Of a stretch of 64,000 nucleotides of DNA, positions 7,945-25,154 are shown one piece after another (within the stretch, counting starts at the first letter, position 1; every line of letters begins with the position of its first letter). The DNA is from Roseobacter fucihabitans. Lineage in GTDB: Bacteria > Pseudomonadota > Alphaproteobacteria > Rhodobacterales > Rhodobacteraceae. Below the pieces are notes generated by a model, which was not told the DNA's origin, searched no databases, and saw only the letters and a program-made list of their open reading frames with translations. The stretch is taken from positions 3,192,501 through 3,256,500 of the forward strand of contig NZ_CP143423.1 in the NCBI RefSeq assembly GCF_014337925.2, in the 5' to 3' direction. The translations under genes were made by a program, and so were the position numbers.

Positions 7945-7959
7945 CAAAAGGATCCCTCG

Positions 7960-9192
7960 ATGAAACTCACCGACCTCGACATCATCATCACCGCCCCCCC
8001 GGCACCGGGGTGGGGCGGGCGCTATTGGATCCTGGTCAAACTCACCACGGATAACGGGATCGTCGGCTGGGGCGAATGCTACGCAGCCTCGGTCGGCCCT
8101 GACGCCATGTGCGCGGTCATCGAGGATGTATTCAACCGCCACATGGCCCATGAAAACCCCGAAAACATCGAATTGATGTTCCGTCGCGCCTATTCCTCGG
8201 GCTTCACACAACGCCCCGATCTGACGGTGATGGGCGCGTTTTCCGGCCTTGAAATCGCCTGTTGGGACATCTTGGGCAAAGCGCGCGACCGCCCTGTCTG
8301 GGCGCTGCTGGGGGGGCAAATGAATGATCGCATCCGCGCCTATACCTACCTCTACCCTGAGGCCGGACATGACATGGCCGCCTTCTGGACCTCCCCCGAC
8401 ATGGCCGCACAAAGCGCCGCCGCGATGGTGGCAAAAGGCTATACGGCGGTCAAATTTGACCCTGCTGGCCCCTATACCATGCGCGGTGGCCATATGCCGG
8501 GCATGCGCGATATCTCTCAATCCGTCGCCTTTTGCAAAGCCATCCGGGAGGCTGTGGGCGACCGGGCCGACCTGCTCTTTGGCACCCATGGTCAATTCAG
8601 CACGGCAGGCGCAATCCGGCTGGGCCAAGCGCTGGAGCCCTTCTCACCCCTCTGGTATGAGGAGCCGATCCCGCCAGATGCCGTCGAGGAAATGGCCAAA
8701 GTCGCGCGGGCCGTGCGCATCCCCGTGGCCACCGGCGAACGCCTGACAACCAAGGCGGAATTTGCGTCCATCCTACGCGCCGGGGCCGCCCATATCCTGC
8801 AACCCGCTCTGGGGCGCGCGGGCGGCATCTGGGAGGCGAAAAAAATCGCCATCCTCGCCGAAACCCATAACGCACAAATGGCCCCGCATCTTTATGCCGG
8901 TCCCGTTGAATGGGCGGCGAACATCCACTTGGCCGCCTCCATCCCCAATCTGCTGATGGCCGAAACCATAGAGACGCCCTTTCACGCCGCGCTGATCAGG
9001 AACACGATCCGGGTCGAGAACGGGTTCGTCACCCCGCCCGAAGCGCCCGGGCTGGGCATTGAGGTCGACGAAGACCTCGCCCGCGCGCATCCCTATACGG
9101 GCACCGGGCTGCATCTGGAGATGCGCGACGCACCGTGTGATTATGTGAACGGAAACGCTTTTGAGGGCGGTGCACCCGCCCCCAAGACATGA
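7960..9192 (+). CDS. mandelate racemase/muconate lactonizing enzyme family protein (probable sugar-acid dehydratase)
   Basis: A 410-residue enolase-superfamily protein. The N-terminal capping domain spans residues 1-120 and a beta/alpha barrel follows. Candidate acid/base residues are Lys165 (AVKFD) and His310 (MAPHLYAGP). Metal-site positions read as GTHGQF (209-214), EEP (Glu234-Glu235) and GERL (Glu260). The first position is therefore His/Gln-like rather than the usual Asp. That pattern suits a dehydratase subgroup acting on a sugar acid or hydroxyacid; I cannot name the substrate. AAAGGA about 9 nt upstream supports the start. Its TGA stop abuts the stop of the convergent minus-strand operon with no spacer. 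Confidence 0.83.
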   Translation: MKLTDLDIIITAPPAPGWGGRYWILVKLTTDNGIVGWGECYAASVGPDAMCAVIEDVFNRHMAHENPENIELMFRRAYSSGFTQRPDLTVMGAFSGLEIACWDILGKARDRPVWALLGGQMNDRIRAYTYLYPEAGHDMAAFWTSPDMAAQSAAAMVAKGYTAVKFDPAGPYTMRGGHMPGMRDISQSVAFCKAIREAVGDRADLLFGTHGQFSTAGAIRLGQALEPFSPLWYEEPIPPDAVEEMAKVARAVRIPVATGERLTTKAEFASILRAGAAHILQPALGRAGGIWEAKKIAILAETHNAQMAPHLYAGPVEWAANIHLAASIPNLLMAETIETPFHAALIRNTIRVENGFVTPPEAPGLGIEVDEDLARAHPYTGTGLHLEMRDAPCDYVNGNAFEGGAPAPKT

Positions 9193-9888
9193 TCAGGTAC
9201 GCGACGCCTCAAAAGCCGCCCAAACCGCTTCGAACTGCGCGAAATCAATCTCTTTGCCCTTAACCGCGTCAAACACGATCTTTTCGGATTTGAACAGCTG
9301 CGCAATCGCATCGCTCAGACGCGGCACCACATCCGTTGGAATCACAACAGCCCCGTGCCGATCCGCATGCACCAACGCCCCCGGCGTAACCTTCATGCCG
9401 AAAATCTCCACCGGTTGATCATAATCGATCACATGCACGAACCCGTGGCTCGGACCAACCGAGCCAGCCACCACTGCAAACCCCTCCGGCAAATCGCCAA
9501 GGTCACGCATGACGCCATCCGTCAAAGCCCCCGATAAGCCAAACGCCTTGTGGATATTGGTGTTCACCTCACCCCAATAGGCACCGATCGCGTTTGGCAC
9601 ATCCATGTCCTGCACCACGGCCACGCCCGGACGCGGACCTTCGGCCATGTATTTATAATACCCCATACGGCGCGCCCGGATCACGTCGGGTGGCTCTTCG
9701 GGCGGGTTCACCGCCTGAATACGTGCCGTGCGGGCATAGCCGACCATCGCCGGGGCCGCAGGGTCCGAGGCGCGCATCGTGCCACGGGTGAAATCATCAA
9801 AACCCCGCTTGCCCTGCGCCACCTCAATCGCGTTGCAGACCGTCGGCGTATCCACCCGGCGCAGCAGGTCAAACAGCGGATCGGACAT
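9193..9888 (-). CDS. RraA-like aldolase/decarboxylase (HMG/CHA aldolase family)
   Basis: A 231-residue protein of the RraA / 4-hydroxy-4-methyl-2-oxoglutarate aldolase family, metal-dependent enzymes that cleave pyruvate from 2-oxo-4-hydroxy acids or decarboxylate oxaloacetate. GAYWGEVNT lies at 102-110, and the active-site Arg/Asp signature TDGVMRD is at 123-129. It is the last gene of the 13-gene minus-strand operon, and its ATG overlaps the preceding TGA (TGATG). An aldolase at the end of a catabolic operon would deliver pyruvate to central metabolism, but this is inference; RraA relatives also include inactive proteins. Confidence 0.82.
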   Translation of the reverse strand: MSDPLFDLLRRVDTPTVCNAIEVAQGKRGFDDFTRGTMRASDPAAPAMVGYARTARIQAVNPPEEPPDVIRARRMGYYKYMAEGPRPGVAVVQDMDVPNAIGAYWGEVNTNIHKAFGLSGALTDGVMRDLGDLPEGFAVVAGSVGPSHGFVHVIDYDQPVEIFGMKVTPGALVHADRHGAVVIPTDVVPRLSDAIAQLFKSEKIVFDAVKGKEIDFAQFEAVWAAFEASRT

Positions 9889-11015
9889 CACCGCGACCCC
9901 GCAAGTTTTGCCCCTTCCGAGAGGGCCTCCAGCTTGGCAAAGGCAATCTCGGGATCCACCGCACCGAACCCCGCAAAGGTCCCAAAGCCGCAATCCGATC
10001 CGGCGATCACCCGCTCGGCCCCCACGATCCCTGTGAAACGTTCAATCCGTTGAGCCACCAATTCGGGGTGTTCGACGAAATTGGTCGTGGTATCCACCAC
10101 ACCGGGCACCAATACCTTGGTGTCCGGAATATCGGCTTTGCGGTCGCGAAACACCGTCCATTCATGCGCGTGGCGCGGGTTGGAGGTTTCAAACAGCACA
10201 TAGCGCGCCTTGGCCGACATCAGCGTGTCGAACACCTTATCCATGCCGATGTCACAGACATGCGGACCCTCGTAATTGCCCCAGCAAATGTGAATGCGGA
10301 TGCACTCTTCGGGCACATCCTGCAAAGCATGGTTCAGCGCTTCGACATGCGCCCCGGCGATTTTCAGGAATTCCGCATCGCTCAGATCATTGAACAGCAT
10401 GTGCCGCGACAACGCCAGATCGGGACAATCCAGTTGCACATCCAGCCCGGCGGCCACGATGGTCTGATATTCCTCGCGCATGGCATCCGCTAGGGCGGCC
10501 AGATAGGCCTCGCGGGTCTTGTAGAAGTCGTTTTGCAAAAACAGCGAAATCACACCGGGGCTGGCCGCATTCATGAACCCGCGTGTCGCACCGTGCTCGG
10601 CCATACCTGCCTTGAGGTTATCAATATCCTTTTGCAACTCGCCCTGCCCTTTGGATTTCACCGCGCCGGTACACATCGGGCGCGCATATTTCGGCGTACC
10701 ACCATCATCGGCCAGGCGTTTGAGAAAGCTGGGGAATTTCTTGAGATCGGCCGGGGCGTTGCGCGGGCTATCTCCGGAAAAACCCGTATAGCGATCTTTG
10801 ACATAGGTGGCATAGGAGATCTTGGACGTCTCCCCATCGCTGACGATGTCGATACCCGCCGCGACCTGTTTGGCGACCGTGTCGGATACTGCCACCGTCA
10901 TCGCCGCATCGAATGCCGCCGGGTTATAGGGTTCCTCGCGCTCCCGCGCAAAAATGAAATCCACGGTTTCTTGTGTGCGGGGAAGGCTGCCGACGTGGGT
11001 GGTTGAGATACTCAT
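9888..11015 (-). CDS. MetE C-terminal-domain-like zinc protein (cobalamin-independent methionine synthase family)
   Basis: A 375-residue protein equivalent to the zinc-binding C-terminal half of MetE. The zinc ligands can be read as His242 and Cys244 (IHICWG), Glu276 (YVLFETSNP) and Cys342 (GSDCGFG). The N-terminus STTHVGSLPRT is also typical. Stand-alone relatives include epoxyalkane:coenzyme M transferases and putative methyltransferases, so thiol or methyl chemistry is likely, but folate-dependent methionine synthesis is not implied. ATG 11015 has GGAG 6 nt upstream and overlaps the bicupin stop; an in-frame ATG at 11027 is an alternative. Confidence 0.85.
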   Translation of the reverse strand: MSISTTHVGSLPRTQETVDFIFAREREEPYNPAAFDAAMTVAVSDTVAKQVAAGIDIVSDGETSKISYATYVKDRYTGFSGDSPRNAPADLKKFPSFLKRLADDGGTPKYARPMCTGAVKSKGQGELQKDIDNLKAGMAEHGATRGFMNAASPGVISLFLQNDFYKTREAYLAALADAMREEYQTIVAAGLDVQLDCPDLALSRHMLFNDLSDAEFLKIAGAHVEALNHALQDVPEECIRIHICWGNYEGPHVCDIGMDKVFDTLMSAKARYVLFETSNPRHAHEWTVFRDRKADIPDTKVLVPGVVDTTTNFVEHPELVAQRIERFTGIVGAERVIAGSDCGFGTFAGFGAVDPEIAFAKLEALSEGAKLAGSR

Positions 11016-11980
11016 GTGCCGCTCCATGTTGGGCCTGCCGGATCATCCGTGGCCAGAATATGAAAAAGGGATGCCTCGCCGGTCATGGACGGCACAGCCG
11101 TGTGCATCAACCCCGCCGGAACCGAGGCCGTGTCGCCCGGATTTAACGTCGCCTGCCCGCCTTCCCATATCAGTTTCCAATGCCCTTTCATCGGCATCAA
11201 AACGGAGGGTCGGTCATGCTGGTGCATCTCCTTGCTCGAGGACGCGCGGGTCAGAAAACCCACCTCGAACCCCGGTTTGTCCTGGATGATTCCTGTTTCG
11301 CCAATCACACAGCAAGGCGTTTTCTGCGCCATCGCCACCATGTCGTTGTAGCGGCGCACGCCAAATCCGACGACATCCATGGGGGAGAGTTCGGGATAAT
11401 TCTGCAACTCTGCATCGCTCAAAACCGGCATGGGCTGCACACCTTCGGGTAGGGTCGCGCCCTTTTTGCTGTCATAAAGCTTGCCGTTTTGCCCCAGGAT
11501 CAAGCCGTGATCTTTGGCGTCCTCGATCACCTGCGGTGCCCAGAGCACGCCGCCGCCCGCATCATCCCCGCCAAGAATGGCCATGATCATCCCATAATCC
11601 GTACCGATATTCTCAAAGCCGCGGAAAATGCCCGTGGGTATGTTGATGATATCGCCCTCTTCGAGGATTACCTCGCCCGCATCCCCCCACCGGCCCCAAA
11701 AAAACCGCCAACGCCCCTTGAGCACGAAAAACACCTCGGCTGTGCGGTGGCTGTGCAGCGAATTGCGGCATTTGGGCGGTTGCCCGGCGGCACCGATGTT
11801 GAACCCATGTGGGATGCCAATATGAACGTGCTGGTCGGGGCTTTCGGACACCCCGCCGCCGATGATCGTGAAGTTCTCCTTCTGATCGCTTCCGGGCGTA
11901 TGCGCATCGATAAAGGCGGTTTTGCAGGGCATCAGATCGCCGTATCGCACGATCCGTTTTTCCATTTCGGCAGGTGTCAT
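11012..11980 (-). CDS. bicupin protein
   Basis: A 322-residue protein with two cupin domains. The first carries LHSHRTAEVFF (His76, His78, Glu82) and a downstream GDIINIPTGIFRGFEN. The second carries MHQHDRPSV near 253 and GDTASVPAGLMHTAV. Both halves retain plausible metal ligands, as in gentisate-type dioxygenases and other bicupins. It overlaps the next gene by ATGA and sits between a SnoaL-like gene and the MetE-like gene. It could be a ring- or C-C-cleaving dioxygenase, an isomerase or a sugar-binding cupin. I see no DddL/Q/W DMSP-lyase signature. Confidence 0.8.
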   Translation of the reverse strand: MTPAEMEKRIVRYGDLMPCKTAFIDAHTPGSDQKENFTIIGGGVSESPDQHVHIGIPHGFNIGAAGQPPKCRNSLHSHRTAEVFFVLKGRWRFFWGRWGDAGEVILEEGDIINIPTGIFRGFENIGTDYGMIMAILGGDDAGGGVLWAPQVIEDAKDHGLILGQNGKLYDSKKGATLPEGVQPMPVLSDAELQNYPELSPMDVVGFGVRRYNDMVAMAQKTPCCVIGETGIIQDKPGFEVGFLTRASSSKEMHQHDRPSVLMPMKGHWKLIWEGGQATLNPGDTASVPAGLMHTAVPSMTGEASLFHILATDDPAGPTWSGT

Positions 11981-12032
11981 GTCGTCTCTCTTTCCAGTCT
12001 CTTCGCGCGCCAGCAGTGTTGCGAACGCGCGC

Positions 12033-13001
12033 TCATCCCGTGTGCAGCAAGATCTGTTTCCAGATCGTGGTTTCATCAAAAATCACATATTCCCGGCGCA
12101 GGCCCCAGGGCCCGAATTCCGCGTGACAGATGCCAAGCAGATAGATATCGGTCCCCGTGGGCGCACCGAACCGGCCCCACCCGCTGTGTTTGCCCGTGAG
12201 CGACCAGCGCAGCGCCGCACGCGGCGGCATCAAGGGATCATCGCGCCCGATCTGGTGGTCGATCTGAAATGTGGCATCGGGAAAAGACGCGCGCAGACCC
12301 ATCCAGAATTGATCGACATCGCCGTGGCTGTGCCCGGTCATCCCGCCGGGGTATTCCACCTGCACCGCGCGGTCATATTCCAACGGGATCGCCGCCATAT
12401 CCGCGCCCATGATACGGGTGATGATATCGGCGTATTTGGCACCCCATGCGTTGTCATTGCCGCGCCCTTTATAGGGTCCGGGCTGGTCCGTCGCGGGGTT
12501 TAGGGGCTGCGCGCAAGCCTCCGGGCCGCCTTCGCGCTCGATCAGGTCGGCGGCATAGGCCTTGGGCTCCCAGCCCAGTTGCCGCACAATCGCGCCCTGA
12601 TCACGGATCAGCCATTCATCGTTGATCTGATTGTTGATCGCATGGCAATCCGCCATGATCCGATAGGTCAACCGTTTGCCCGTCGCCTGACCGTACACGC
12701 CGTCATGCATATGGGTCGCGGTGCTGAGCAGACGGTGGGAGGATAACATCCCCTCCTCCGGCGTGCCGGACCAGATCACATCCTCGCCCATGAGCGTGCG
12801 GTCGGGGAATTCGGCAAGCGTGGCCATGGTCGCGCCGATGACGTTTTGATTGCCGATGACGACCGAGGCCGGGGAACGCACCACGATATCGTCAGAATAA
12901 TACTGGTGCAGGGTCGCGATACCGCGATCTTCCCAGATCTCGCGTGTGATCCCGATGATGTAATCGGGGAAATCCTTGAATTTCGGATCGAAGCCTTGCA
13001 T
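12033..13001 (-). CDS. SnoaL-like (NTF2-fold) protein A, two domains
   Basis: A 322-residue protein with a duplicated SnoaL/NTF2-like architecture. The first half contains TLHQYYSDDIVVRSP, followed by a beta-rich region ending near residue 145. The second half contains GDVDQFWMGLRASFPDATFQIDH and ends DETTIWKQILLHTG, typical of SnoaL-type ester-cyclase/aldol-condensation folds. It is one of three such proteins in the same operon, lying between the LacI regulator and bicupin genes. Members can be hydrolases, isomerases or cyclases, so only the fold can be assigned. A weak AAGG precedes the ATG. Confidence 0.75.
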   Translation of the reverse strand: MQGFDPKFKDFPDYIIGITREIWEDRGIATLHQYYSDDIVVRSPASVVIGNQNVIGATMATLAEFPDRTLMGEDVIWSGTPEEGMLSSHRLLSTATHMHDGVYGQATGKRLTYRIMADCHAINNQINDEWLIRDQGAIVRQLGWEPKAYAADLIEREGGPEACAQPLNPATDQPGPYKGRGNDNAWGAKYADIITRIMGADMAAIPLEYDRAVQVEYPGGMTGHSHGDVDQFWMGLRASFPDATFQIDHQIGRDDPLMPPRAALRWSLTGKHSGWGRFGAPTGTDIYLLGICHAEFGPWGLRREYVIFDETTIWKQILLHTG

Positions 13002-13007
13002 GGCGGG

Positions 13008-14018
13008 CTACCTTTTTGGTTTGCGGGCAGAGCTGCGGATAATCAACGGACCATCAAGCGTGATCCGGCGGGGGGCGGCATCCTCATCGGACAAGCGCGC
13101 CAGAAGAGCGGCGACGGTGGCGGCCACCATTTGGTTTGCGGGCTGTCGAACGGTCGTCAGATCATAGCTGGGCCAATGGGACAGCGTCACGTCATCATAC
13201 CCGACAACCGACACATCCTGCGGCACGCGCAAACCCAACTCATAACGCAACACATCCATCACGGCGAAGGCCATGTGGTCATTGGCCACGAATACCGCAT
13301 CGGGGCGTTCCGGGGCGACGAACATTTCGCGGGCGGCGTTCTTCGCGGTCTCAAAATTGAAATTGCCGACACCGCGCGCAAACAGCCTGTGACCGGCTGC
13401 CTTTAGCCCGGCCATAAAACCGGCCTCGCGGTCAATCTGGGTCGAGGCCCCTTCCCAGCCCGCGATATGGGCGATGCGTTCATGCCCGCCCGCAATCAGG
13501 AAGTCCGCCAGCTTGCGCCCGCCCGCGACATTGTCCGATGTGACACTTGTCAGCCGTTCGTCATATTGGTGCCGGTTGAACAAGACGATGGGGATGCCGA
13601 GCCCCTCGCAGCGTTTCGTCAGATCATTGGACAGGCCCACCGAGGCCGCAATGATCGCGTCCACCTGATAATCGAGCAATTCGTCGATCACTGTCTGGGT
13701 CGCCGCGTGATCATTGGAGGCCATGAAGACCAGCACGTGATACCCTTCGGCTTGCAAGGCCTTGGAGAGGCGTTCAATGGCTTCGGGGTAGAACTGGTTC
13801 TCCAGATAGGCGACCACAAGGCCGATGATCCGGCTGCGCCCGGTGATCAGCGAGCGCGCCAGCACGTTGGGGCGATACCCCAGCGCCGCCGCCGCCTTGC
13901 GCACCTTGGCGGCCGTGGTTTTACTGACCGAGGCACCGGGGGTGAACACGCGGCTGACTGCCGAGCGGCTGACGCCTGCTTTTTCGGCCACGTCCAGTGA
14001 GGTCACCTTGCCCATCAT
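13008..14018 (-). CDS. LacI-family transcriptional regulator
   Basis: A 336-residue LacI/GalR regulator. The N-terminal helix-turn-helix VTSLDVAEKAGVSRSAVSRVF is at about 5-25, with the hinge helix NVLARSL near 52. A periplasmic-binding-protein-like effector domain follows, and GYDDVTLS near 277 is typical. It is encoded inside the operon it probably controls; its first codons overlap the SDR stop. The best operator candidate is the perfect palindrome at 22550-22567 ahead of the first transporter gene. The effector is probably the transported compound or an intermediate, which is not identifiable. Confidence 0.92.
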   Translation of the reverse strand: MMGKVTSLDVAEKAGVSRSAVSRVFTPGASVSKTTAAKVRKAAAALGYRPNVLARSLITGRSRIIGLVVAYLENQFYPEAIERLSKALQAEGYHVLVFMASNDHAATQTVIDELLDYQVDAIIAASVGLSNDLTKRCEGLGIPIVLFNRHQYDERLTSVTSDNVAGGRKLADFLIAGGHERIAHIAGWEGASTQIDREAGFMAGLKAAGHRLFARGVGNFNFETAKNAAREMFVAPERPDAVFVANDHMAFAVMDVLRYELGLRVPQDVSVVGYDDVTLSHWPSYDLTTVRQPANQMVAATVAALLARLSDEDAAPRRITLDGPLIIRSSARKPKR

Positions 14019-14773
14019 CCCGCTGTCCAGCCGCCGTCGATCTTCAGCGATGTTCCGGTGATCATCCCCGAGGCATCCGAGGCCAGAAACAGCGCCGCCC
14101 CCATGATGTCCTCGACCTCGCCGACACGCGGCAATTTGATCTTCTCCATGATCCAGGCCAGCCGCTCAGGGTTGTTGAAAGTCACCGCAGACAATGGCGT
14201 GCGAATGAACGTCGGGCAGATGGTATTGATGCGGATGCCGGATTTGCCCCACTCGATGGCCATTGATTTGATCATACCTTCAAGCGCGTGTTTGGAGGCG
14301 CAATAGACCGCGCGATCAATGCCGCCGACATGGCCCATCTGGCTGGAAATGTGAATGATCGAGCCGGATTTTCCCGCCGCCATCAAGGCTTTGGCCGCAT
14401 GGGCCGACAGGAAATAGGCCCCGCGCAGATTGACACCCATCACCGCATCGAAGTCTTCTGGCGTGGTCTCGATGGCGGGCGCATGGCGGGCGAGACCGGC
14501 CGAGTTGATGACGATATCAAACGGCTGCTCGAAGGCGGCGGGCAAGGCACCAGGATCCGCCTGATCCAGCGGCATCGCCTCCGCGGACCAGCCTTGAGCG
14601 GTCATTGCGCTCACGGAGGCCTCTAAAACATCCACGCGGCGCGCCGCACAAACCACATGCGCGCCCGCCTCGGCCAGCGCCACCGCACAGCCCAGACCGA
14701 TGCCCGAGGACGCCCCCGTCACCAAGGCACGTTTGCCCTTCAGATCGAAAGTCGGTGTTCTTGGCAAATCCAT
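14015..14773 (-). CDS. short-chain dehydrogenase/reductase (SDR)
   Basis: A 252-residue classical SDR. The cofactor motif TGASSGIG lies at 19-26, NSAG near 90, the catalytic Ser in HISSQMG and Tyr-Lys in YCASK near 156, and DGGWTAG is at the C-terminus. The basic residues after the second strand (AARR) favour NADP(H), though NAD(H) is possible. Its start abuts the stop of the SnoaL-like protein B gene and its end overlaps the LacI gene. It probably oxidises or reduces a hydroxyl group of the imported substrate in concert with the HisD-like enzyme. Confidence 0.9.
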   Translation of the reverse strand: MDLPRTPTFDLKGKRALVTGASSGIGLGCAVALAEAGAHVVCAARRVDVLEASVSAMTAQGWSAEAMPLDQADPGALPAAFEQPFDIVINSAGLARHAPAIETTPEDFDAVMGVNLRGAYFLSAHAAKALMAAGKSGSIIHISSQMGHVGGIDRAVYCASKHALEGMIKSMAIEWGKSGIRINTICPTFIRTPLSAVTFNNPERLAWIMEKIKLPRVGEVEDIMGAALFLASDASGMITGTSLKIDGGWTAG

Positions 14774-15819
14774 TACAGAACCCTCCCCGTTTCGGGATCA
14801 AACCCAGCGCGGGCCTTGTTGAACTCGCGCAGACGCGCGAACACATCCACCCCGATCTGATCATACATGTGCAACAGGTCCACCAGCACCCAGTTTTCGC
14901 GGATCAGCCCGTTTTCGAGGCGCCAGAAATCCAAGGAGCGCATGGCGATCTTCTTGCCAGTCGGTGCGATGCCAAGCCACCCGCCGTGGGTTATGGATTG
15001 ATACATGTCCGGCCAACCGGTGACGGCGGCGTAATTATGATCACCAAAGAAGTGGTATTCGATCTCATCCACACATTGCCCCCGATCCGGCATCCCGTTG
15101 AGAAACGGGATCTGGTGCCATTTACGAAACCCTTCGATGCCGCGCCCGGTACCAATGCCCGACGGTCCATACCAGCTCATGCGCGGATGCCAGAAGCGCT
15201 CCATCTCCATGACCTCCGCGCCACCTTGCGAGGGGTGGCGTTTGAGATGTTCCAGCATATCGATGATGTGCTCGCAAGTGGCGCGCCCTGCGGCATCGTC
15301 ATAAGGCGCGGTAATGATACCGTCACAGGTGGCCGGTCCGGGGATATGCCATTCGCGCCCCAGGCTTGGGGTCATGGGCCAGGCGCGCGCCTGCATCATC
15401 ACCTCGGGGATGTCCCAGAGCGCCTGCATCTCGACGAGCTTGCCGTCTTCGATCCGGTAAAACTCGTGAAACCGCATATGCGCGGCGTGACCGGTCGGGG
15501 GGATGTCGAGCCACGGTCCGGTGAATGTTCCAAGGTAAAACCCGCCGCATCCCACCCAATTCGCCCCTTCAGGCGTGGGTCCGGCCATGACGATGTGATC
15601 ACGCCGTTCCAGATCTGGAAAGGCGCGTTCCAGCGGCGCGTAGACCCGGTCGACATAGGCATCCACTCCTTTGATGGTCTCAAAGGGAAAGGCGAGGTGA
15701 AACACCACCTCGGGGGCGCAAATATCATGCAGAACCACGCGTAGCTTGGCGAGGTCGAAGTCATACATCGCCGCCCGCAACGGCGCGATGCGCTCTTTCA
15801 GGTTTGAATAATGGTCCAT
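14773..15819 (-). CDS. SnoaL-like (NTF2-fold) protein B, two domains
   Basis: A 348-residue tandem SnoaL-like protein. The N-terminal copy includes DICAPEVVFHLAFPFETIKG and FHEFYRIEDGKLVEM. The C-terminal copy includes FWHPRMSWYGPSGIGTGRG and LDFWRLENGLIRENWVLVDLLHM. The closing pattern of a W/F-x-x-x-x-G-x-I/L-x-x-x-W-V-x-V-D strand is the same as in protein C of this operon. Each half has the acidic and aromatic positions seen in ester cyclases. The reaction is unknown. A GC-rich double hairpin separates it from the HisD-like gene upstream. Confidence 0.78.
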   Translation of the reverse strand: MDHYSNLKERIAPLRAAMYDFDLAKLRVVLHDICAPEVVFHLAFPFETIKGVDAYVDRVYAPLERAFPDLERRDHIVMAGPTPEGANWVGCGGFYLGTFTGPWLDIPPTGHAAHMRFHEFYRIEDGKLVEMQALWDIPEVMMQARAWPMTPSLGREWHIPGPATCDGIITAPYDDAAGRATCEHIIDMLEHLKRHPSQGGAEVMEMERFWHPRMSWYGPSGIGTGRGIEGFRKWHQIPFLNGMPDRGQCVDEIEYHFFGDHNYAAVTGWPDMYQSITHGGWLGIAPTGKKIAMRSLDFWRLENGLIRENWVLVDLLHMYDQIGVDVFARLREFNKARAGFDPETGRVL

Positions 15820-15826
15820 GTCTTCT

Positions 15827-15882
15827 TTTGGCTCAAATACTCCGGGGGAGATGCCCTCCGGGCATCGGGGGCAGCGCCCCTA
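15827..15882 (-). terminator. two tandem GC-rich hairpins between HisD-like and SnoaL B genes
   Basis: GATGCCC (15850-15856) pairs with GGGCATC (15860-15866), and GGGGC (15868-15872) pairs with GCCCC (15876-15880), which overlaps the HisD-like stop codon. The flanking TTTTGGCTCAAATACTCC resembles a hairpin sequence common between Roseobacter genes. There is no clear T-tract, so it may stabilise or attenuate the mRNA rather than terminate it fully. Confidence 0.55.
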
Positions 15883-17208
15883 CTCCGCTGCTTCTTGTGC
15901 CGGCGCGCCTGTCCCATAGGGGACGTTGATCCCGCCATAGCGTCTGACCCGCAGGTTGCATTGTTCCGCGTGGCCAACGAAGCCTTCGAGCATGCAAAGC
16001 CGCGAGCCATAGGCCCCGATTTCCGCCGCCGCCTCATCGGTCAGAATTTTCTGATAGCTGTGGGTTTTGAGGAATTTCCCGACCCAAAGCCCGCCGGTAT
16101 AGCGCCCGGCCTTCTTGGTGGGGAGCGTGTGGTTCGTGCCGATCACCTTGTCACCATTCGCCACATTGGTGCGCGCCCCAAGAAACAGCGCGCCGTAACA
16201 GGTCATCTTCTCCAGAAACCAGTCATCGCGGTCGGTCATGACCTGCACGTGCTCAGAGGCGATGTCATCGGCAACAGTCAGCATCTCGTCATAGGTGTCA
16301 CAGAGGATCACCTCTCCGTAATCTTCCCAGCTGACCTTCGCGGTATCCGCCGTCGGCAGGATTTCGAGGATACGGTCGATTTCCGTGAGCGTCGTATCCG
16401 CCAATTTGCGCGAGTTGGTGAGCAAGACAGCCGGGGAATTATACCCATGCTCCGCCTGCCCTAACAGGTCGGTGGCACAGATTTCAGCGTCCACCGTGTC
16501 ATCCGCGATCACCATGGTTTCTGTCGGGCCCGCAAACAGATCAATGCCCACGCGCCCGAACAATTGCCGCTTGGCCTCAGCGACATAGGCGTTGCCCGGC
16601 CCTACGATCATATGCACCGGCTCGATTGTATCCGTGCCGATGGCCATCGCGCCAACGGCCTGAATACCGCCCATGACGTAGATCTCATGCGCGCCCCCCA
16701 GATGCATCGCGGCGATCACGGCTGGGTTCGGCTTGCCCTTGAAGGGCGGCGTGCAAGCGATGATGCGCGGCACTTTGGCGACGCTGGCGGTGGCCACTGA
16801 CATATGTGCGCTGGCCACCATCGGGAATTTGCCGCCTGGCACATAACAGCCGACCGATTGCACCGGAATATTTTTATGTCCGAGGATCACGCCGGGCATG
16901 GTTTCGACCTCGATGTCGAGCATGCTGTCGCGTTGGGCCTGAGCGAAATTACGCACCTGTTCCTGCGCAAAGCGAATGTCCGCCATCTCGCGCGGGGTTA
17001 GCTGTGCCATCAGCTCATCGATCTCTGCCGCGCTGAGCTTGAAAGAGGGCGGGGAATAGGCGTCGAATTTCTCTGACAATTCCCGCACAGCCGCATCCCC
17101 GCGCGCCTCAATATCCGCCAGTATCGCTTCGACCGAAGCACGCGTCTTGGCATCATCATCGGCGCGTTCAGACGCAGGTTTGCCGGTTTTCAAATACTCA
17201 ATGGTCAC
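15880..17208 (-). CDS. histidinol-dehydrogenase-like NAD-dependent dehydrogenase (HpsN-related)
   Basis: A 442-residue HisD-family enzyme. Zinc ligands correspond to Gln251 and His254 (GQAEHGYNS), Asp353 ([10 protein letters not shown]) and His413 (VGHAEQC). The catalytic pair is Glu319-His320 (ASEHVQ). All are intact. No other his gene is nearby; it sits in an operon with an ABC importer, an SDR and SnoaL-like proteins. This is the pattern of HisD paralogues such as sulfopropanediol 3-dehydrogenase (HpsN), which oxidise other polyols. I infer a two-step alcohol-to-acid oxidation of the imported substrate. The start is GTG 17208 with GGAG 8 nt upstream overlapping the preceding stop. Confidence 0.87.
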
Positions 17209-17220
17209 TTTGCAAACTCC

Positions 17221-17751
17221 TTATTGCTCAGGGCGTGGTGGCGTTTTTTCGCCCCGGTCAAAGGCCTCCCAGCCCTCCCCCTGAAAGACATCGCGACCCA
17301 GTTGGGCCAATACATGCGGGAAATCGACCATCACCCAATTGTCGGTAATGCGTCCTTCCTCGACCTTCCAGAAATCCATATAAAGGATTTCGATACGTTT
17401 GCCGGTGGGGGCGATCCCCATGAATTCACCGGCATGGGTCGCCTCCTGCCGTCCGAAAGCCGCCGCCCATTCGCCCATGTAAAGGCGTGCTTCATCAACA
17501 CAAACCTTGTCCGAAAACGCCGCCTGAAACGGGCGTTGCCAGTTGTCTTGGAACTCTTGCACGCCGGTTTTGCGGCCACAGCCCTGGTTGCCCATCCAGC
17601 GGAAGCTTTCGGCAAAAAACGCGCCAATGTCGTCGATACGGTGATCGTTCAACCCATCCACCATGCCCTCGATGACAGCACGGGTTTGATCGGTCTTGCT
17701 CATATCCGTGTCGCGGGTCAGGGTGGCTTGCTCGGGGCGGGATCCCTTCAT
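17221..17751 (-). CDS. SnoaL-like (NTF2-fold) protein C, single domain
   Basis: A 176-residue SnoaL-like protein. It has an N-terminal helix pair (MVDGLNDHRIDDIGAFFAESF), then RWMGNQGCGRKTGVQEFQDNW, GEFMGIAPTGKRIEI and FWKVEEGRITDNWVMVDFPHVL, which is the standard single-domain pattern. It resembles the C-terminal half of protein B. ATG 17751 is preferred because GGAG lies 10 nt upstream; MSKTD at 17703 is an alternative. It links the ABC transporter genes to the HisD-like gene, with a 12-nt gap to the latter. Confidence 0.78.
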   Translation of the reverse strand: MKGSRPEQATLTRDTDMSKTDQTRAVIEGMVDGLNDHRIDDIGAFFAESFRWMGNQGCGRKTGVQEFQDNWQRPFQAAFSDKVCVDEARLYMGEWAAAFGRQEATHAGEFMGIAPTGKRIEILYMDFWKVEEGRITDNWVMVDFPHVLAQLGRDVFQGEGWEAFDRGEKTPPRPEQ

Positions 17752-17799
17752 GATGGTATCACTCCAAAAGTGCATATTTGAGGAACAATGAAGAACAGG

Positions 17800-18957
17800 T
17801 CATCCTTTGACTGCGCCTGCCGTTAGTCCGGAGACGATCTGGCGTTGGAACACCATGACCAGGAGGAACAGGGGAGCGGTGATCGAGACCGCCGCGGCCA
17901 CCGCTTCGACCTGATCCGTGGTGGTAGTTTCGCGGTTGAAATACCCCGCAATGGCCGGGACCATCGTCTGGTTTTGCGCATCCAGCAGCAGAGAGGTGAC
18001 GAGGAAATCATTGTAGCCCAGAAGGAAGCTGAACAGACCCGTGGTGATGACGCCCGGCCACATCACCGGCATGATCACCCGGCGAAAGGCCTGGAAATGG
18101 CTACATCCATCCACGCGGGCGGCCTCATCAAGTTCGGCGGGGATGTTCTGAAAAAACGAGCGCAGCATCCAGATGGTGAAGGGCTGGTTGATCGAGACCA
18201 ACACCGCGATGACGGCCCAGGGTTGACCGTAGAGCGTTGGGGCACCGTCGCCAAAGAAGGGGCGCAGGATTTCCGAAGAGTTGATGAAAACCGGCAGGTA
18301 TCCGGCCACAAGAACGGAGTGTGGCAAGGCGCGGAACACAAGCGCGAGGATCAGCAGCCAGAACGCCAGGTCAGAGCCGGAGCGGGCCAGACCGTAGCCC
18401 GCCAATGTCCCGACGGTCAGGGAGATAGTAACAACGCCCGCCGTGACCAGCATGGAATTCAGGAAGTTGCGGTAGAATTCGTTTTCGCCCCAGACCGCCA
18501 CGTAATGTTGCGTTGTCAGCCCCAGCACGGGGGTCCCCAGCGGGCCAAGGAGGCTGTTCAGCGCACCAAGGATCAGCGGCAGAAGGCCAAAGAAGATCAA
18601 GACAAAAGCGACCGCATAGAGTACCGCACCAAAGACCCATCCGAGGATTATCAGGCTCGGCGGGCTGAATTTTTGCACAAGTGCTGGTAATTTGGTGAAG
18701 GTCCAGCGGATGGCGAAGAATATCACCATAAGACCGAGGGCAATGTCGATCACCGACAACCCATCGCCTCCGGCGCGCGTGGCGGGGCCAAAGATCACAT
18801 CCCAAGGGCTCGCGGCGAATGCGTCCACGGGGGATTTAAAGCTCATCACCGCGATCCAGAAGATCGGGAAGGCCGCGAGTACACACCAGAAGGCGAGAAA
18901 GGCACCCGAGGAAAGACGCAGTGCGAGCGATTGCTGCATGGCTTTGGAGGTGGACAT
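17800..18957 (-). CDS. ABC transporter permease, MalG type, with extra N-terminal segments
   Basis: A 385-residue inner-membrane permease of the carbohydrate ABC importer family (MalG/UgpE side). The ATPase-contacting EAA loop reads EAARVDGCSHFQAFRRVIMPVMWPG near 290. MalG proteins are usually about 280-300 residues. The excess lies between TM1 and the core, where two additional hydrophobic stretches occur at about 68-85 and 100-135. The ATG overlaps the stop of the MalF-type gene (TGATG). Confidence 0.9.
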   Translation of the reverse strand: MSTSKAMQQSLALRLSSGAFLAFWCVLAAFPIFWIAVMSFKSPVDAFAASPWDVIFGPATRAGGDGLSVIDIALGLMVIFFAIRWTFTKLPALVQKFSPPSLIILGWVFGAVLYAVAFVLIFFGLLPLILGALNSLLGPLGTPVLGLTTQHYVAVWGENEFYRNFLNSMLVTAGVVTISLTVGTLAGYGLARSGSDLAFWLLILALVFRALPHSVLVAGYLPVFINSSEILRPFFGDGAPTLYGQPWAVIAVLVSINQPFTIWMLRSFFQNIPAELDEAARVDGCSHFQAFRRVIMPVMWPGVITTGLFSFLLGYNDFLVTSLLLDAQNQTMVPAIAGYFNRETTTTDQVEAVAAAVSITAPLFLLVMVFQRQIVSGLTAGAVKG

Positions 18958-19982
18958 CAGTGTGCGCTCCCTTTGTGGTCACGCCAGGTGCGGCGCAGTG
19001 GCAGGATCAGCAAAAATACGATCCCGATCATCGTTAGCATAGCCGAGGCCGAAGCGCGGCTGATCGCGCGGTTGCCTGCATCATCCGGTGTCATGAAATC
19101 ATAGGTCAGCCATTGCAGCGAGATCACATGCGCCTGACTGCGGAAGCCGACGATCTCCTCGAACACGCGGTAACAATCCATCAGGTGGATCAGCGCGATG
19201 AATACAATGAGCGGCATCAGATGCGGTATGATGACATGGCGCAGGCGCTCCCAGCGGCTGGCCCCATCGATCACCGCGGATTCCAGCGTGTCCATATTCA
19301 CGGTTTGCAAACCCGCGTAGAAGATCACAAAAGCAAAAGGAGCGACGTGCCAGACCCGGTAGAAATACATCAGTAGTTCGATGGTCCAGGCCTGGGCGAA
19401 CATGGAGATATTCGTGCCCGTCCAACGCTCCATCATGGCGGTCAGGATACCGTCACCCACAAACAGCCAGTAGATTGAGAGCGACCCGATCACCGGCGTG
19501 ATAATGAAGGGCAGCAGCGACACGAAAATGACGGGACCGCGGATCGTGCGGCTGGCATTGTTGACGGCCAGCGCGATCGCCAGCCCCACACCGATCACCA
19601 GCGGCAAGGTCAGCAGCGTAAAAGAGAGCGTGAATCGCAGGGCCTTCCAGAAATCGATCTGCATGATGTCATTCCAGCTGCCGTTACCCACGGCCTCCCA
19701 GAATTTATCCATTTGCAAAACGTTGCGATAGCTTTGCAAACCCACCCAGGCCGTTTGGGTCATGGTTTTGCCATTGTCATCCAGCACCGGGATGGTTTTG
19801 GTCTCGGTCGTGCAGGTCTGTGTGAGGAATCCGGGCGTGCAGGTTTCAACCTCCACCCGTTCCAGAATGGGCTGCGTGACCTGAAAACTCTGGATGAAAA
19901 CACTGACCAAGGGGGCCGCGATGAACAGCAACATCATAAAGACTGACGGGCCGACGAAGGCTGCGAATGTCTTGAACTTCAT
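18957..19982 (-). CDS. ABC transporter permease, MalF/UgpA type
   Basis: A 341-residue permease of the carbohydrate ABC importer family, the partner of the MalG-type gene it overlaps. The EAA loop is DGASRWERLRHVIIPHLMPL near 245. After TM1 there is a polar insertion of about 50 residues with two cysteines (CTPGFLTQTC), probably periplasmic. GAGGAG 7 nt upstream supports the ATG at 19982. The gene follows the binding-protein gene after a gap of about 125 nt that holds two hairpins. Confidence 0.9.
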   Translation of the reverse strand: MKFKTFAAFVGPSVFMMLLFIAAPLVSVFIQSFQVTQPILERVEVETCTPGFLTQTCTTETKTIPVLDDNGKTMTQTAWVGLQSYRNVLQMDKFWEAVGNGSWNDIMQIDFWKALRFTLSFTLLTLPLVIGVGLAIALAVNNASRTIRGPVIFVSLLPFIITPVIGSLSIYWLFVGDGILTAMMERWTGTNISMFAQAWTIELLMYFYRVWHVAPFAFVIFYAGLQTVNMDTLESAVIDGASRWERLRHVIIPHLMPLIVFIALIHLMDCYRVFEEIVGFRSQAHVISLQWLTYDFMTPDDAGNRAISRASASAMLTMIGIVFLLILPLRRTWRDHKGSAH

Positions 19983-20025
19983 GGGGCGCTCCTCGCGGCA
20001 AACCGCATTGGGATGGGTCCGGAAT

Positions 20026-20063
20026 GGCTTTGCAAACTGTGCATTTACAGGTTTTGCAAAGCC
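20026..20063 (-). promoter_or_regulatory. stem-loop between binding-protein and permease genes, containing two TTTGCAAA boxes
   Basis: GGCTTTGCAAA (20026-20036) is the exact complement of TTTGCAAAGCC (20053-20063), and CTGT/ACAG (20037-20040, 20047-20050) extends the stem over a 6-nt loop. The octamer TTTGCAAA in each arm recalls the half-sites of the palindrome at 22550. It could be an internal LacI operator, an mRNA-stabilising hairpin behind the binding-protein gene, or both. Confidence 0.55.
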
Positions 20064-20077
20064 TTCAAAGGGGCACC

Positions 20078-20099
20078 GGCCGGGATGTTTACCCCGGCC
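20078..20099 (-). terminator. GC-rich hairpin downstream of binding-protein gene
   Basis: GGCCGGG (20078-20084) pairs with CCCGGCC (20093-20099) over an 8-nt loop, 10 nt after the binding-protein stop. No T-tract follows. Hairpins here commonly let the binding protein be made in excess over the permeases. Confidence 0.5.
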
Positions 20100-20109
20100 A
20101 GCGCGGTTG

Positions 20110-21330
20110 TTATTTCAAGACACCCGCTTCCTTGGCGGAGGTCGTATAGGCTTCCTCAATGGCCACCAATGTCGCCTCTGCGTCACGATCTCCGGTCAAA
20201 AAGGCAGGTAGTTCGTTGCCAAGCGCCGTGTGCATCAGACCCATCTGCGTGGTCGAGGGATAGGCCGGTGGCGCGGGTGTTGCCATCGCTGTGGCAATCG
20301 CACCTGCGGCGATGTCCGTGGGCTCGTAGCCCTGCACCAGCCAGATCGCCGCTTCATTTGCGCCCTGCACGGTCTCCGCGTCCAGCCCTTCCATGGCCAA
20401 GCGGAAAGCCGCGTCGGCCTCTTCATCTGAGATGTTCTTGGCGATCACGATACCGTCCCACCAGAGCGTCGTCGCGGGCGCGCCGCCCGCAACGGCCGTG
20501 GGTGCTGCGGCCATGGCGACCTTGCCGACAACCTGGCTTTCAGCGGCATCATCCATCGCACCGGCACGGCTTGCCCAGAGGTTCGCCATGGCGATCTTGC
20601 CTTGTTGAAACTGCTGCTGCACATAGGTGGAGTCGCTTACCAGCACTTCGGGATCGGTAAAGGCGAGCGCCTTCTGCATTGTCGCCAGCGCCTGCAAACC
20701 CGCCTCGGAATTCACCGCCGCCGTATTGTCATCGTTGAAGAACTTCCCGCCAAAACCCGGATACATGTTCACGAATTCCTGGGCGATATTCCACCCGGAT
20801 TTCATCGTTGCCCCCAGCGGGTAATCGACCACGCCTGCCGCCTGGATCTTTTCCGCCGCGGCATATACCTCGTCCCAACTTGTCGGCACCTCAATGCCAA
20901 GATCGGCCAGAATGTCAGAGCGGTACATCAAATGCTGCGTATTCACCATCATGGCGACGGCCATGATCTCGCCGTTAATGCGGATCAATTGGTTCGGCGT
21001 CAGGTTCTGGCCATATTTGGCGACCAGATCGTCAAGCGGACGGATTGTTCCGGCATTGATCAGCGGCGTGATCGTCCCGTTTGAGACACCTCCGATTTGA
21101 TAAAGCGATGGGTTCGCCTCAAAGGCGGCAGGCTGTTTCGTACGAAATTCCTGATCCAGTTCGGCCTGGAAATTTCCACATTCGGCCATAGCATCCGTGA
21201 CGGCCTTCCAGGCTTCAAAGCCTGCCGACAGCGATTTGATCGGCACGGTATTCTCATATGAACAGGCTGCAAATGCAGCCCCGCCCATGAGCGAAAACGC
21301 CCCCGCCAGTGCGATTTTCTTCAAAAACAT
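20110..21330 (-). CDS. ABC transporter substrate-binding protein (carbohydrate type)
   Basis: A 406-residue periplasmic binding protein. A signal peptide spans residues 1-22 (basic MFLKK, hydrophobic core, AFA cleavage site) ahead of ACSYENTV. The mature part resembles family 1 (MalE/UgpB-like) solute-binding proteins, with GGVSNGTITPLINAGTIRPLDDL and a C-terminal TTSAKEAGV. Its ligand is not readable from sequence. ATG 21330 has GGGAG 7 nt upstream. It lies between the ATPase gene and the permease genes, and a stem-loop follows it. Confidence 0.9.
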   Translation of the reverse strand: MFLKKIALAGAFSLMGGAAFAACSYENTVPIKSLSAGFEAWKAVTDAMAECGNFQAELDQEFRTKQPAAFEANPSLYQIGGVSNGTITPLINAGTIRPLDDLVAKYGQNLTPNQLIRINGEIMAVAMMVNTQHLMYRSDILADLGIEVPTSWDEVYAAAEKIQAAGVVDYPLGATMKSGWNIAQEFVNMYPGFGGKFFNDDNTAAVNSEAGLQALATMQKALAFTDPEVLVSDSTYVQQQFQQGKIAMANLWASRAGAMDDAAESQVVGKVAMAAAPTAVAGGAPATTLWWDGIVIAKNISDEEADAAFRLAMEGLDAETVQGANEAAIWLVQGYEPTDIAAGAIATAMATPAPPAYPSTTQMGLMHTALGNELPAFLTGDRDAEATLVAIEEAYTTSAKEAGVLK

Positions 21331-21413
21331 ATGCAAACTCCCTCTTGCGTATTACTTGGGTGCATCTTGCAAGGCTGCACCCTCTTGTTGGCCCCGCTTT
21401 GGGGGGTCACTTT

Positions 21414-22469
21414 TCAGGTCGCGTCGATGCGCGTCCCACTCTCCTTGTCGAACAAATGACAGATCGCGACCGGCACGTTGAACGAGATCATATCCCCGAT
21501 TTTGGCGCGAAACTCCTTATGTGCTTTGACCGACACCAACTGCCCGCCGGCGCGCACCGTGAGCATCGTCGCATCGCCCAGAAGCTCGATGGTGTAGATT
21601 GGTGCCATGATCTGACCCGCGCTGCCTTCGGCCAGGGTCGCATCTTCGGCCCGAAACCCAAGCGTCACTGGGCCGTCTGCGCCCGGCAACCCCGCAATCG
21701 ACACCTTGTCGCCGCTGAATGTCCCTCCGCTCAGCGTGCCATCCATCAGGTTCATCGCCGGGCTGCCGATAAAGCTGGCCACAAATGTATTTGCCGGGTG
21801 ATCGTAAATATCTGTCGGCGTGCCGACCTGCTGCACCTTGCCCTGCTTCATCACGACAACCCGGTCGGCCAGCGTCATGGCTTCGATCTGGTCATGGGTC
21901 ACATAAACGGTGGTCACTTTGAGCTCGTGACTGAGGTTCTTGATCTGCGCGCGTGTGGAGACGCGCAGCTTTGCGTCAAGGTTCGAAAGCGGCTCATCCA
22001 TCAGGAACACATTGGGCTCACGCACAATCGCCCGCGCAAGGGCCACTCGCTGGCGTTGGCCTCCAGAAAGTTCTGCCGGTTTGCGGTGCAGGAATTCGTC
22101 AAGCTCCACCATGGCGGAGGCCCGGCGGACCCGCTCGTCATGTTCGTTTTCCGGTACTTTCCGGACCTTCAGCGGAAAACGAATATTGTCGTAAACATTC
22201 ATGTTCGGGTAAAGGCCATAGGATTGGAACACCATAGCGACATCGCGGTCCTTTGGGTCCAGATCGTTGACCACCTTACCATCAATGATGATCTCACCCT
22301 CTGTGGCGTCCTCAAGACCCGCAATCATCCGCATCGTCGTCGTCTTGCCGCATCCCGAAGGACCGAGCAGCACGAGGAATTCCTGGTCTGCAATCGTGAG
22401 GTCGAAATTGTCCACCCCGACAAAGCTACCCCACCGCTTGTTGATGTTTCGCAGTTGAATTTCGGCCAT
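21414..22469 (-). CDS. ABC transporter ATP-binding protein, MalK/UgpC type
   Basis: A 351-residue ATPase energising the importer. Walker A is GPSGCGKTT (36-44), the Q-loop region VFQSYGLYPNMNVYDN, the signature LSGGQRQRVALARA, Walker B VFLMDEPLSNLD and the H-loop VYVTHDQIEA. A C-terminal OB-type regulatory domain (from about 240) is present, as in MalK/UgpC. It is the first gene of the 13-gene operon; GGGGAC precedes the ATG. The putative LacI operator lies 81-98 nt upstream. Confidence 0.93.
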   Translation of the reverse strand: MAEIQLRNINKRWGSFVGVDNFDLTIADQEFLVLLGPSGCGKTTTMRMIAGLEDATEGEIIIDGKVVNDLDPKDRDVAMVFQSYGLYPNMNVYDNIRFPLKVRKVPENEHDERVRRASAMVELDEFLHRKPAELSGGQRQRVALARAIVREPNVFLMDEPLSNLDAKLRVSTRAQIKNLSHELKVTTVYVTHDQIEAMTLADRVVVMKQGKVQQVGTPTDIYDHPANTFVASFIGSPAMNLMDGTLSGGTFSGDKVSIAGLPGADGPVTLGFRAEDATLAEGSAGQIMAPIYTIELLGDATMLTVRAGGQLVSVKAHKEFRAKIGDMISFNVPVAICHLFDKESGTRIDAT

Positions 22470-22929
22470 GATGTCCCCGCTGTCGCAGGCCTGCCTGGTG
22501 CAGGCTTTCGTTAACGCTAGTCAATCACGATATCGTTTGGCAAGGCTTTTTTGCACACGTGTGCAAAGCAATCTTCGGACTGTTGGAGTTTTGCGCAGTG
22601 GCTCGCATCACACACCCAAACCGCGTTTTTGAAGCATGTCTCCGCCAGGGAGCCATGGATGATTTTAGATCACAGAGTTACGGTAAAATACTGTTTTTAA
22701 ATTGTTTAAGTGAAACACTTCTTTTACCTCTACGCCGTGAGGCGGTGGCATAAGCTCTGGTGGGCTTCCCGCCGTATGTGTGATTTTACGGCGATTTCAG
22801 CCATTTTAATTGGATGTGTATGGCATTCTGTGCGGCATGCTCTTGTCACGACAAATCGCTCCTCGCCACAGGGCACAGCGTAACCTAAAGGCGAATCGTT
22901 TGAGTTACGCAGGCCTGCAGACGCGTTGG
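22470..22929. other. intergenic control region between the ABC-operon start and the E1 gene end
   Basis: No convincing gene is present. The left part holds a 10-bp palindrome (ACGATATCGT, 22527-22536) and the 18-bp palindrome at 22550-22567, both suited to controlling the minus-strand operon. The stretch 22660-22735 is markedly AT-richer than its surroundings and may contain promoter elements. Short open frames here have no recognisable product. Confidence 0.6.
22550..22567. promoter_or_regulatory. candidate LacI-family operator
   Basis: TTTGCACACGTGTGCAAA is a perfect 18-bp palindrome with the central CG typical of LacI-family operators. It lies 81-98 nt upstream of the first gene of the operon that encodes a LacI regulator. 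Binding by that regulator is inferred from position and symmetry. Confidence 0.7.
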
Positions 22930-25110: not shown

Positions 25111-25154
25111 CAGGTACTCACTCTTGCCGTAAAACTCTTACGCGCCCGTCGTTC

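Follow-up and report, generated by a model that had tools for sequence, protein, structure and literature searches.

The window analysed here is a 64,000-nucleotide stretch of the Roseobacter fucihabitans genome (C1:3192501-3256500 of 4.85 Mb in six contigs), and it holds a conserved thirteen-gene set that appears to let many, mostly marine, bacteria import and degrade a compound. The list of open reading frames (ORFs) of the window places all thirteen on the minus strand, spanning 9193-22469 (Table 1), and they follow each other in transcription order as ATPase, binding protein, two permeases, SnoaL_C, HisD-like protein, SnoaL_B, short-chain dehydrogenase/reductase (SDR), LacI, SnoaL_A, bicupin, MetE-like and RraA-like proteins. 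The spacing between genes goes from −4 to 127 bp, with stop and start codons overlapping by 1 or 4 bases at five junctions (MetE/RraA, bicupin/MetE, SDR/LacI, SnoaL_B/SDR and PermF/PermG), and the first-pass annotation, which had read thirteen genes on one strand with many overlaps, was right in this. Pfam agrees with the family names given there for the ten proteins submitted (RraA-like, Meth_synt_2, cupin, three SnoaL, LacI, SDR, Histidinol_dh and SBP_bac_1), while the permeases and the ATPase were assigned via homology to annotated ATP-binding cassette (ABC) genes. The SBP_bac_1 protein, the two permeases and the ATPase together make a complete CUT1 importer set. The mechanical starts of the RraA, bicupin, SnoaL_C and solute-binding protein genes were too far upstream and were corrected by relatives or by the ribosome-binding site, the favoured starts being 9888, 11980, 17703 and 21330, respectively.

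Table 1. Features of the operon and neighbouring genes in the window.
Feature	Position	Strand	Basis or remark
LacI-type operator, perfect palindrome with central CG	22550..22567		Lies 80 bp ahead of the ATPase start
ABC importer ATPase, first gene of the operon	21414..22469	-	Homology to annotated ABC genes
Solute-binding protein, CUT1 type (SBP_bac_1)	20110..21330	-	Pfam; PDB matches are sugar binders and SmoF
ABC permease F	18957..19982	-	Homologues labelled 'sugar ABC transporter permease'
ABC permease G	17800..18957	-	Homologues labelled 'carbohydrate ABC transporter permease'
SnoaL_C, one SnoaL domain	17221..17703	-	PF07366; start set from relatives
HisD-family dehydrogenase, GKFPM-signature subfamily	15880..17208	-	Pfam, PDB relatives, alignment
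SnoaL_B, matched twice by SnoaL	14773..15819	-	Pfam
SDR dehydrogenase	14015..14773	-	Pfam; nearest NCBIfam models PRK07060 group and KduD
LacI-family regulator	13008..14018	-	Pfam, NCBIfam
SnoaL_A, two NTF2-like domains	12033..13001	-	Pfam, model, Foldseek
Bicupin, N-terminal cupin site invariant, C-terminal site unconserved	11012..11980	-	Alignments, model
MetE C-terminal-like protein, zinc set H, C, E, C	9888..11015	-	Pfam, alignment
RraA-family protein, Arg-Asp pair conserved	9193..9888	-	Pfam, alignment
Fused E1 2-oxo acid dehydrogenase, membership uncertain	22930..25110	-	Across the operator from the operon; in 17/80 related loci
Enolase-superfamily protein, nearest gluconate/galactonate dehydratases, membership uncertain	7918..9192	+	Convergent; in 30/80 related loci

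A scan of reference genomes with SnoaL_B gave 330 relatives, and the best 80 loci were retained for the counts. By tblastn, each gene is present in 66 (RraA) up to 80 of these loci, many of the absences falling at locus ends. The grouping goes beyond chance, since 60 of the 80 loci have all 13 genes and 58 of those 60 keep them collinear; the co-occurrence of the families across genomes, suggested earlier as a check on the operon, is thus found. Titles of the loci include Roseobacter, Tateyamaria, Sulfitobacter, Ruegeria and Roseibium, and plasmid-borne versions are carried by Paracoccus, Ruegeria, Octadecabacter, Martelella and Alloyangia and also by Ensifer, Rhizobium and Sinorhizobium medicae. 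With a limit of E 1e-60, the bicupin is found in 79 of 198 genomes of the family (one genome per genus by tally) and in 19 of 398 genomes of a phylum sample, the own genome being counted in both. At a limit of E 1e-175, the HisD subfamily occurs in 54 of 385 genomes of a class sample, the carriers including three genomes of 1.4-2.2 Mb whose retrieved stretches have 30-31% G+C. No published description of the operon, or of breakdown genes for mycosporines (the substrate class considered below), was found in one open-access library, several of the queries being broad. So common a pathway without a substrate in the searched literature is a gap in the knowledge of these bacteria's diet, and candidate substrates can be tested directly with the operator, the binding protein and the HisD-like enzyme.

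The first-pass annotation ended the operon at 22567, which is the outer edge of a perfect 18-bp palindrome, TTTGCACACGTGTGCAAA. This is the sole genome site with up to 2 mismatches, and the only window site with up to 3, for 0.01 expected. A match within four mismatches lies upstream in 76 of the 81 loci having an upstream stretch, and in 71 of these 81 stretches there is a palindrome centred on CG in which 14 or more of the 18 positions are symmetric; as a control, of 2000 stretches drawn at random from these loci, real sites included, 44 match within four mismatches. The form TTGCANNCGNNTGCAA occurs 108 times in the 2.57 Mb of retrieved loci (some overlapping), the chance figure being about 0.1, and 96 of the 108 sites adjoin the ATPase gene and/or a divergent SnoaL gene. 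Lone sites of this form front HisD/SDR in locus L136 and the bicupin in L098. The core-type site of the window is present in 17 of 19 genomes of the genus, adjoining genes not being part of the count, and the operator form in 20 of 39 relatives, with 1-3 sites each and mostly two core types, a site count without gene context. Because the palindrome is conserved upstream and sited beside operon genes, the operon looks like a single regulatory unit. The LacI control proposed at the outset is supported by the palindromic operator at the promoter and its retention with the operon, and the LacI protein of the window would be the one that binds it. A second palindrome, TTTGCAACCGGTTGCAAA, occurs twice, at G000:C1:1605237 and 1609541, 4.3 kb apart, and is present in 12 of the 19 genus genomes; perhaps it marks a second, separate regulon.

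The assignment of the dehydrogenase to the HisD family is supported by Pfam (Histidinol_dh) and by the aligned zinc and catalytic residues, which are intact (QAEH, EH (SEH), GDK and HA), and the protein exceeds the NCBIfam hisD domain cut-off (429.8 versus 243.8 bits). Another HisD copy, 38% identical and of GLASY/GDY type, is located at G000:C1:601491, and is likelier than the window gene to be the HisD of the histidine pathway. The closest solved relatives are HpsN (PDB 8v35, E 1e-115). The HpsN enzymes of Cupriavidus pinatubonensis and Ruegeria pomeroyi, which are 3-dehydrogenases of 2,3-dihydroxypropane-1-sulfonate (DHPS), have in common with the window enzyme the HisD fold, the zinc ligands, the catalytic Glu-His and the GDK lysine, but differ in operon partners and in the signature G-R-Y-A/S-H, whose last His (His126) contacts the sulfonate according to PMC11382572. 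At that position the window protein has GKFPM, whereas the HpsN of the same genome has GRYSH. The 118 aligned rows comprise 96 GKFPM (the window gene twice), 17 related GK/GR-F/Y-P-M/L/I, 2 GRYSH (the own HpsN retrieved twice) and 3 GLASY (the own HisD twice and one relative), so that in all 113 GK/GR-x-P rows Met, Leu or Ile takes the place of the sulfonate His; two of these rows (Martelella and L135) are more distant paralogues at 44-46%. The own HpsN belongs to a separate hps-like cluster with genes for an SDR, a Zn-dehydrogenase, a tripartite ATP-independent periplasmic (TRAP)-like transporter and LacI, recognized by homology and by eye. Since the sulfonate His is absent while the zinc and catalytic residues are intact, the window enzyme looks like a further HisD branch oxidising another alcohol; the HisD tree, in which a single long branch carries the own HpsN, does not fix the order of the HisD branches or place the enzyme relative to HpsN. 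A broken second HisD-like copy, 78% identical, covers only residues 133-442, with two stops, at G000:C1:24696-25628 (L100, 10197-11126), and a transposase-looking ORF, seen by eye, lies a few kb away.

The bicupin residues H76, H78, E82 and R120 are invariant in 27 rows and recur in nine relatives that are 30-46% identical; in L137 and L138 the N-terminal cupin stands alone. The bicupin model, with a predicted local distance difference test (pLDDT) of 77.8, gave 3-hydroxyanthranilate and quercetin dioxygenases as top Foldseek matches, and with the profile only one PDB entry scores at E 0.01 or better, acireductone dioxygenase (E 9e-4), a reductone enzyme. The protein shares the cupin fold and the N-terminal HxH-x3-E with acireductone dioxygenase and with the bicupin dioxygenases (3-hydroxyanthranilate 3,4-dioxygenase, quercetinase, salicylate/gentisate dioxygenase), but differs from them in the Arg at the fourth ligand position, the likeness being superfamily-level only. 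The RraA and HpcH/HpaI families both include enzymes that free pyruvate from 4-hydroxy-2-oxo acids. All 75 rows of the RraA-like protein have the Arg and the Asp, and the profile of the protein reaches 3noj (E 1e-4), the structure of an aldolase for 4-carboxy-4-hydroxy-2-oxoadipate (CHA) and 4-hydroxy-4-methyl-2-oxoglutarate (HMG), with the Arg-Asp pair aligned; it resembles the HMG/CHA aldolases (LigK, GalC, ProA) in family and in this pair, but scores under the curated cut-offs and does not have 3noj as top PDB hit. The MetE-like protein has its zinc set (H, C, E, C) unchanged in 17 aligned rows, the least similar at 37% identity, and in 90 of 90 rows. With MetE, the cobalamin-independent methionine synthase, this protein shares the catalytic-domain family and the zinc set, but it has about 375 amino acids, falls under the MetE-type cut-offs and is operon-borne. 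SnoaL_A and SnoaL_B are each long enough for two NTF2-like domains and are each matched twice; both domains are visible in the SnoaL_A model (pLDDT 94.2), whose Foldseek matches are the MonBI-MonBII epoxide-hydrolase complex, IdmH, AclR and SnoaL2. The SDR is led in NCBIfam by the PRK07060 group and KduD, the 25 best models listed all being below cut-off.

For REPLACEMENTS in relatives, 23 diverse loci beyond the 80 were taken (L115-L117, L120-L139). All have a HisD-like gene, 18 an SDR, 13 LacI, 12 the bicupin and six a MetE-like gene (that of L120 by tblastn). RraA is present in four and an HpcH/HpaI aldolase in six (two confirmed by Pfam, four via similarity), never together, and this exchange, with RraA in the operon, makes likely the pyruvate-releasing aldolase that had been suggested from the RraA family alone; the HpcH/HpaI protein of L117 has its top score with the sugar-acid aldolase GarL, below cut-off. 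The MetE-like gene is replaced in L130 by a homocysteine S-methyltransferase gene (PF02574) about 35 bp after the SDR, the HisD-SDR pair preceding, and L134, a single example like L130, has a VanA-type Rieske oxygenase adjoining a PF04199 cyclase, together with a fumarylacetoacetate (FAA) hydrolase and two glutathione S-transferase (GST)-like ORFs, the latter recognized by eye. With the invariant zinc ligands of the MetE-like protein and another type of demethylating enzyme beside HisD in these two relatives, the methylated substrate that was earlier only a possibility becomes probable. The transporter is of TRAP type in L117, L120-L122, L137 and L138, and of sodium:solute symporter (SSS) type in L115 and L116. 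In L126 and L127, whose genomes measure 1.4 and 1.6 Mb, the MetE-like, bicupin, SnoaL and HisD genes are retained, and in L126 also RraA and SDR. An alpha/beta hydrolase resembling PcaD and BioH is found in 35 of the 80 loci. L137 and L138 are a distinct pathway variant, in which HisD-SDR lies near PF04199 cyclases, a single-domain cupin, a TRAP transporter and the flavoprotein and 2Fe-2S subunits of CO-dehydrogenase type.

On these sequences we consider likely a frame consisting of a methylated substrate, oxidation of a hydroxymethyl group and a pyruvate-releasing end. Because of the aldolase families found, RraA and HpcH/HpaI, a 4-hydroxy-2-oxo acid is the expected substrate of the last enzyme. 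Candidates were therefore sought among natural compounds with: (i) a methyl group; (ii) C-N bonds; (iii) a hydroxymethyl beside a hydroxyl, and (iv) a skeleton ending in a 4-hydroxy-2-oxo acid. The leading candidate as substrate class, although a tentative one on the doubtful side, is that of the mycosporines and mycosporine-like amino acids (MAAs). The mycosporine core is a cyclohexenone with a methoxy at C2, OH and CH2OH at C5, and C4 and C6 as CH2. Once oxidised, this core would map carbon for carbon onto CHA, which we take to be HOOC-CO-CH2-C(OH)(COOH)-CH2-COOH. As a whole, the proposal of a LacI-type operon that imports a methylated hydroxymethyl-carbinol C-N compound and degrades it to pyruvate, with mycosporines in the lead, is possible, rather short of even. 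If true, it would account for what becomes of a widespread group of UV-screening compounds. Homarine, an early guess, was abandoned, a literature search linking it to nothing here and its structure lacking a hydroxymethyl group; pantoate and cysteinolate were also considered and set aside on grounds of their chemistry.

In the proposed pathway, the CUT1 importer would take up the mycosporine or MAA, and the SnoaL proteins, whose role is guessed from their fold, would hydrolyse the ring C-N bonds; several paralogues might be there because the amino substituents vary. The HisD-like enzyme, with help from the SDR, would carry C5-CH2OH through a four-electron oxidation to COOH while the zinc holds the vicinal C5-OH, and the MetE-like protein would move the C2 O-methyl to a thiol such as homocysteine. 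The cupin would then cleave the resulting 2-hydroxy-1,3-dione, a reductone, at C2-C3 with O2, and from the product, CHA, the RraA-family protein would release pyruvate and oxaloacetate. In loci with the alpha/beta hydrolase, the methyl could instead be lost once the ring is open, in the form of a methyl ester: a methyl still on C2 at cleavage would give such an ester, which could explain a PcaD/BioH-like hydrolase. Ring chemistry would be favoured by the cyclase, FAA hydrolase and GST-like ORFs of L134, by the matches of the bicupin to bicupin dioxygenases and acireductone dioxygenase, and by the PcaD/BioH-like hydrolase. We infer every one of these reactions, and the substrate, from gene families and their arrangement.

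A number of observations weigh against the mycosporine proposal. Within the stretches covered, neither aldolase is present in 13 of the 23 diverse loci, a MetE-like, homocysteine S-methyltransferase or VanA gene is missing in 15, and the bicupin in 11; since the diverse loci are often without aldolase, methyl enzyme or bicupin, HisD can serve other pathways. The hydrolase occurs in 34 of 68 loci with the MetE-like gene versus 9 of 12 without it, two genomes being counted twice, and a clean exchange between the two genes was dropped because these counts are too weak. The Foldseek matches of the bicupin are superfamily-level, with a template modelling (TM) score of about 0.45, and include vicilins and oxalate decarboxylase; the acireductone dioxygenase hit was obtained without any stretch passing on its own, and an invariant Arg occupies the fourth metal-ligand position of the cupin site. 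The RraA profile scores 3k4i (uncharacterized) and 5ir2 (labelled cellulase) above 3noj, and the protein is far below the cut-offs of ligK_PcmE (25.2 versus 304.5 bits) and PRK09262 (22.3 versus 179), as is the MetE-like protein, at best, for the MetE-type models (88.6 versus 406 bits). No NTF2-like protein is known to us to hydrolyse C-N bonds of this kind. Versions of the operon are also carried by rhizobia, and algal mycosporine conjugates are called recalcitrant in PMC11599910. Finally, a sugar explains CUT1, LacI, the KduD- and GarL-like scores and the neighbouring sugar-acid dehydratase no less well.

An O-methylated sugar, uronate or polyol is a substrate that we regard as unlikely, though not greatly so. 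In such a route the SDR and HisD would give a sugar acid, the alpha/beta hydrolase would open a lactone, cupin or SnoaL proteins would isomerise or dehydrate, the MetE-like protein would demethylate and RraA/HpaI would cleave a 2-keto-3-deoxy acid. The pairing of LacI with a CUT1 importer, an SDR near KduD and gluconate dehydrogenases, the GarL score of L117 and the gluconate/galactonate dehydratase-like neighbour in 30 of 80 loci all speak for it, but three or more SnoaL proteins are left without a clear job, and neither the dehydratase nor the zinc-dependent alcohol dehydrogenase (Zn-ADH) neighbour has an operator within 3 mismatches. Moreover, the Rieske, FAA-hydrolase, cyclase and CO-dehydrogenase-type flavoprotein genes around HisD-SDR in L134 and L137/L138 suit the chemistry of rings or N-compounds better.

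Rather unlikely, in our judgement, is that the operon joins two linked modules with different substrates, one of ABC and SnoaL proteins for uptake and trimming, the other a HisD-SDR-bicupin-aldolase core that also uses TRAP or SSS transporters; this scheme may refine the mycosporine proposal. It would account for L120, with the core and a TRAP transporter and no SnoaL, for L121/L122, with HisD, SDR, HpaI, LacI and TRAP, and for the ABC/SnoaL genes of Vibrio pelagius and Halobellus limi. One promoter/operator in 76 of 81 loci and one gene order argue against it, as does the same operator form fronting HisD/SDR in L136 and the bicupin in L098. The plasmids of V. pelagius (L086) and H. limi (L085) carry the importer and four or five SnoaL-type genes, with no HisD or bicupin in the stretch covered, and organisms of this type possibly trim the substrate but leave its core undegraded. 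Sarcosine oxidase and purU lie near the Vibrio cluster, and a MetE-like and an aminomethyltransferase gene near that of Halobellus; the sarcosine oxidase was not used as evidence because it may belong to a glycine betaine operon.

A methoxylated, lignin-like aromatic, passing through gallate/3-O-methylgallate-like ring cleavage to CHA and an RraA-fold aldolase, is improbable. Syringate/3-O-methylgallate catabolism in Sphingobium SYK-6 and Pseudomonas NGC7 shares methyl removal, a methylester hydrolase, the CHA aldolase end and a SnoaL-like putative tautomerase, although its substrate is aromatic and the passages of PMC12314914 from which this comparison is taken do not mention HisD, LacI or a CUT1 importer. 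MetE-like relatives at 51-54% in two sphingomonads also point this way, but HisD-type alcohol oxidation and a LacI/CUT1 pair are unexpected for aromatic acids, and the thirteen genes include neither ring hydroxylase nor extradiol dioxygenase. In the sphingomonad loci (L093, L094) the MetE-like gene overlaps an NTF2-like gene, with IclR, an aminomethyltransferase-type gene, metF, purU and folD nearby, and in the Novosphingobium cluster ligAB stands next to the MetE-like/NTF2 set.

A sulfonate, for example DHPS or a close analogue, which the HisD-like enzyme would oxidise as HpsN does, agrees with the nearest solved relatives and with the retained sulfonate-contacting Lys (GDK), but this substrate, among those offered by the first-pass annotation, is rejected as very improbable on the replaced signature His and the separate hps-like cluster, no desulfonating enzyme being found among the 13 genes.

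Concerning the flanks, the window scan found no operator of their own within 3 mismatches at the enolase-type and Zn-ADH genes downstream or at the E1/acyl-CoA dehydrogenase genes upstream, and these were not retained as operon members, although linked to it in some relatives. The fused E1 and acyl-CoA dehydrogenase genes (22930-26378) have the same strand as the operon; they are linked to it in several Sulfitobacter and Roseobacter loci and in Ruegeria (L089), and are arranged differently in Shimia (L067).

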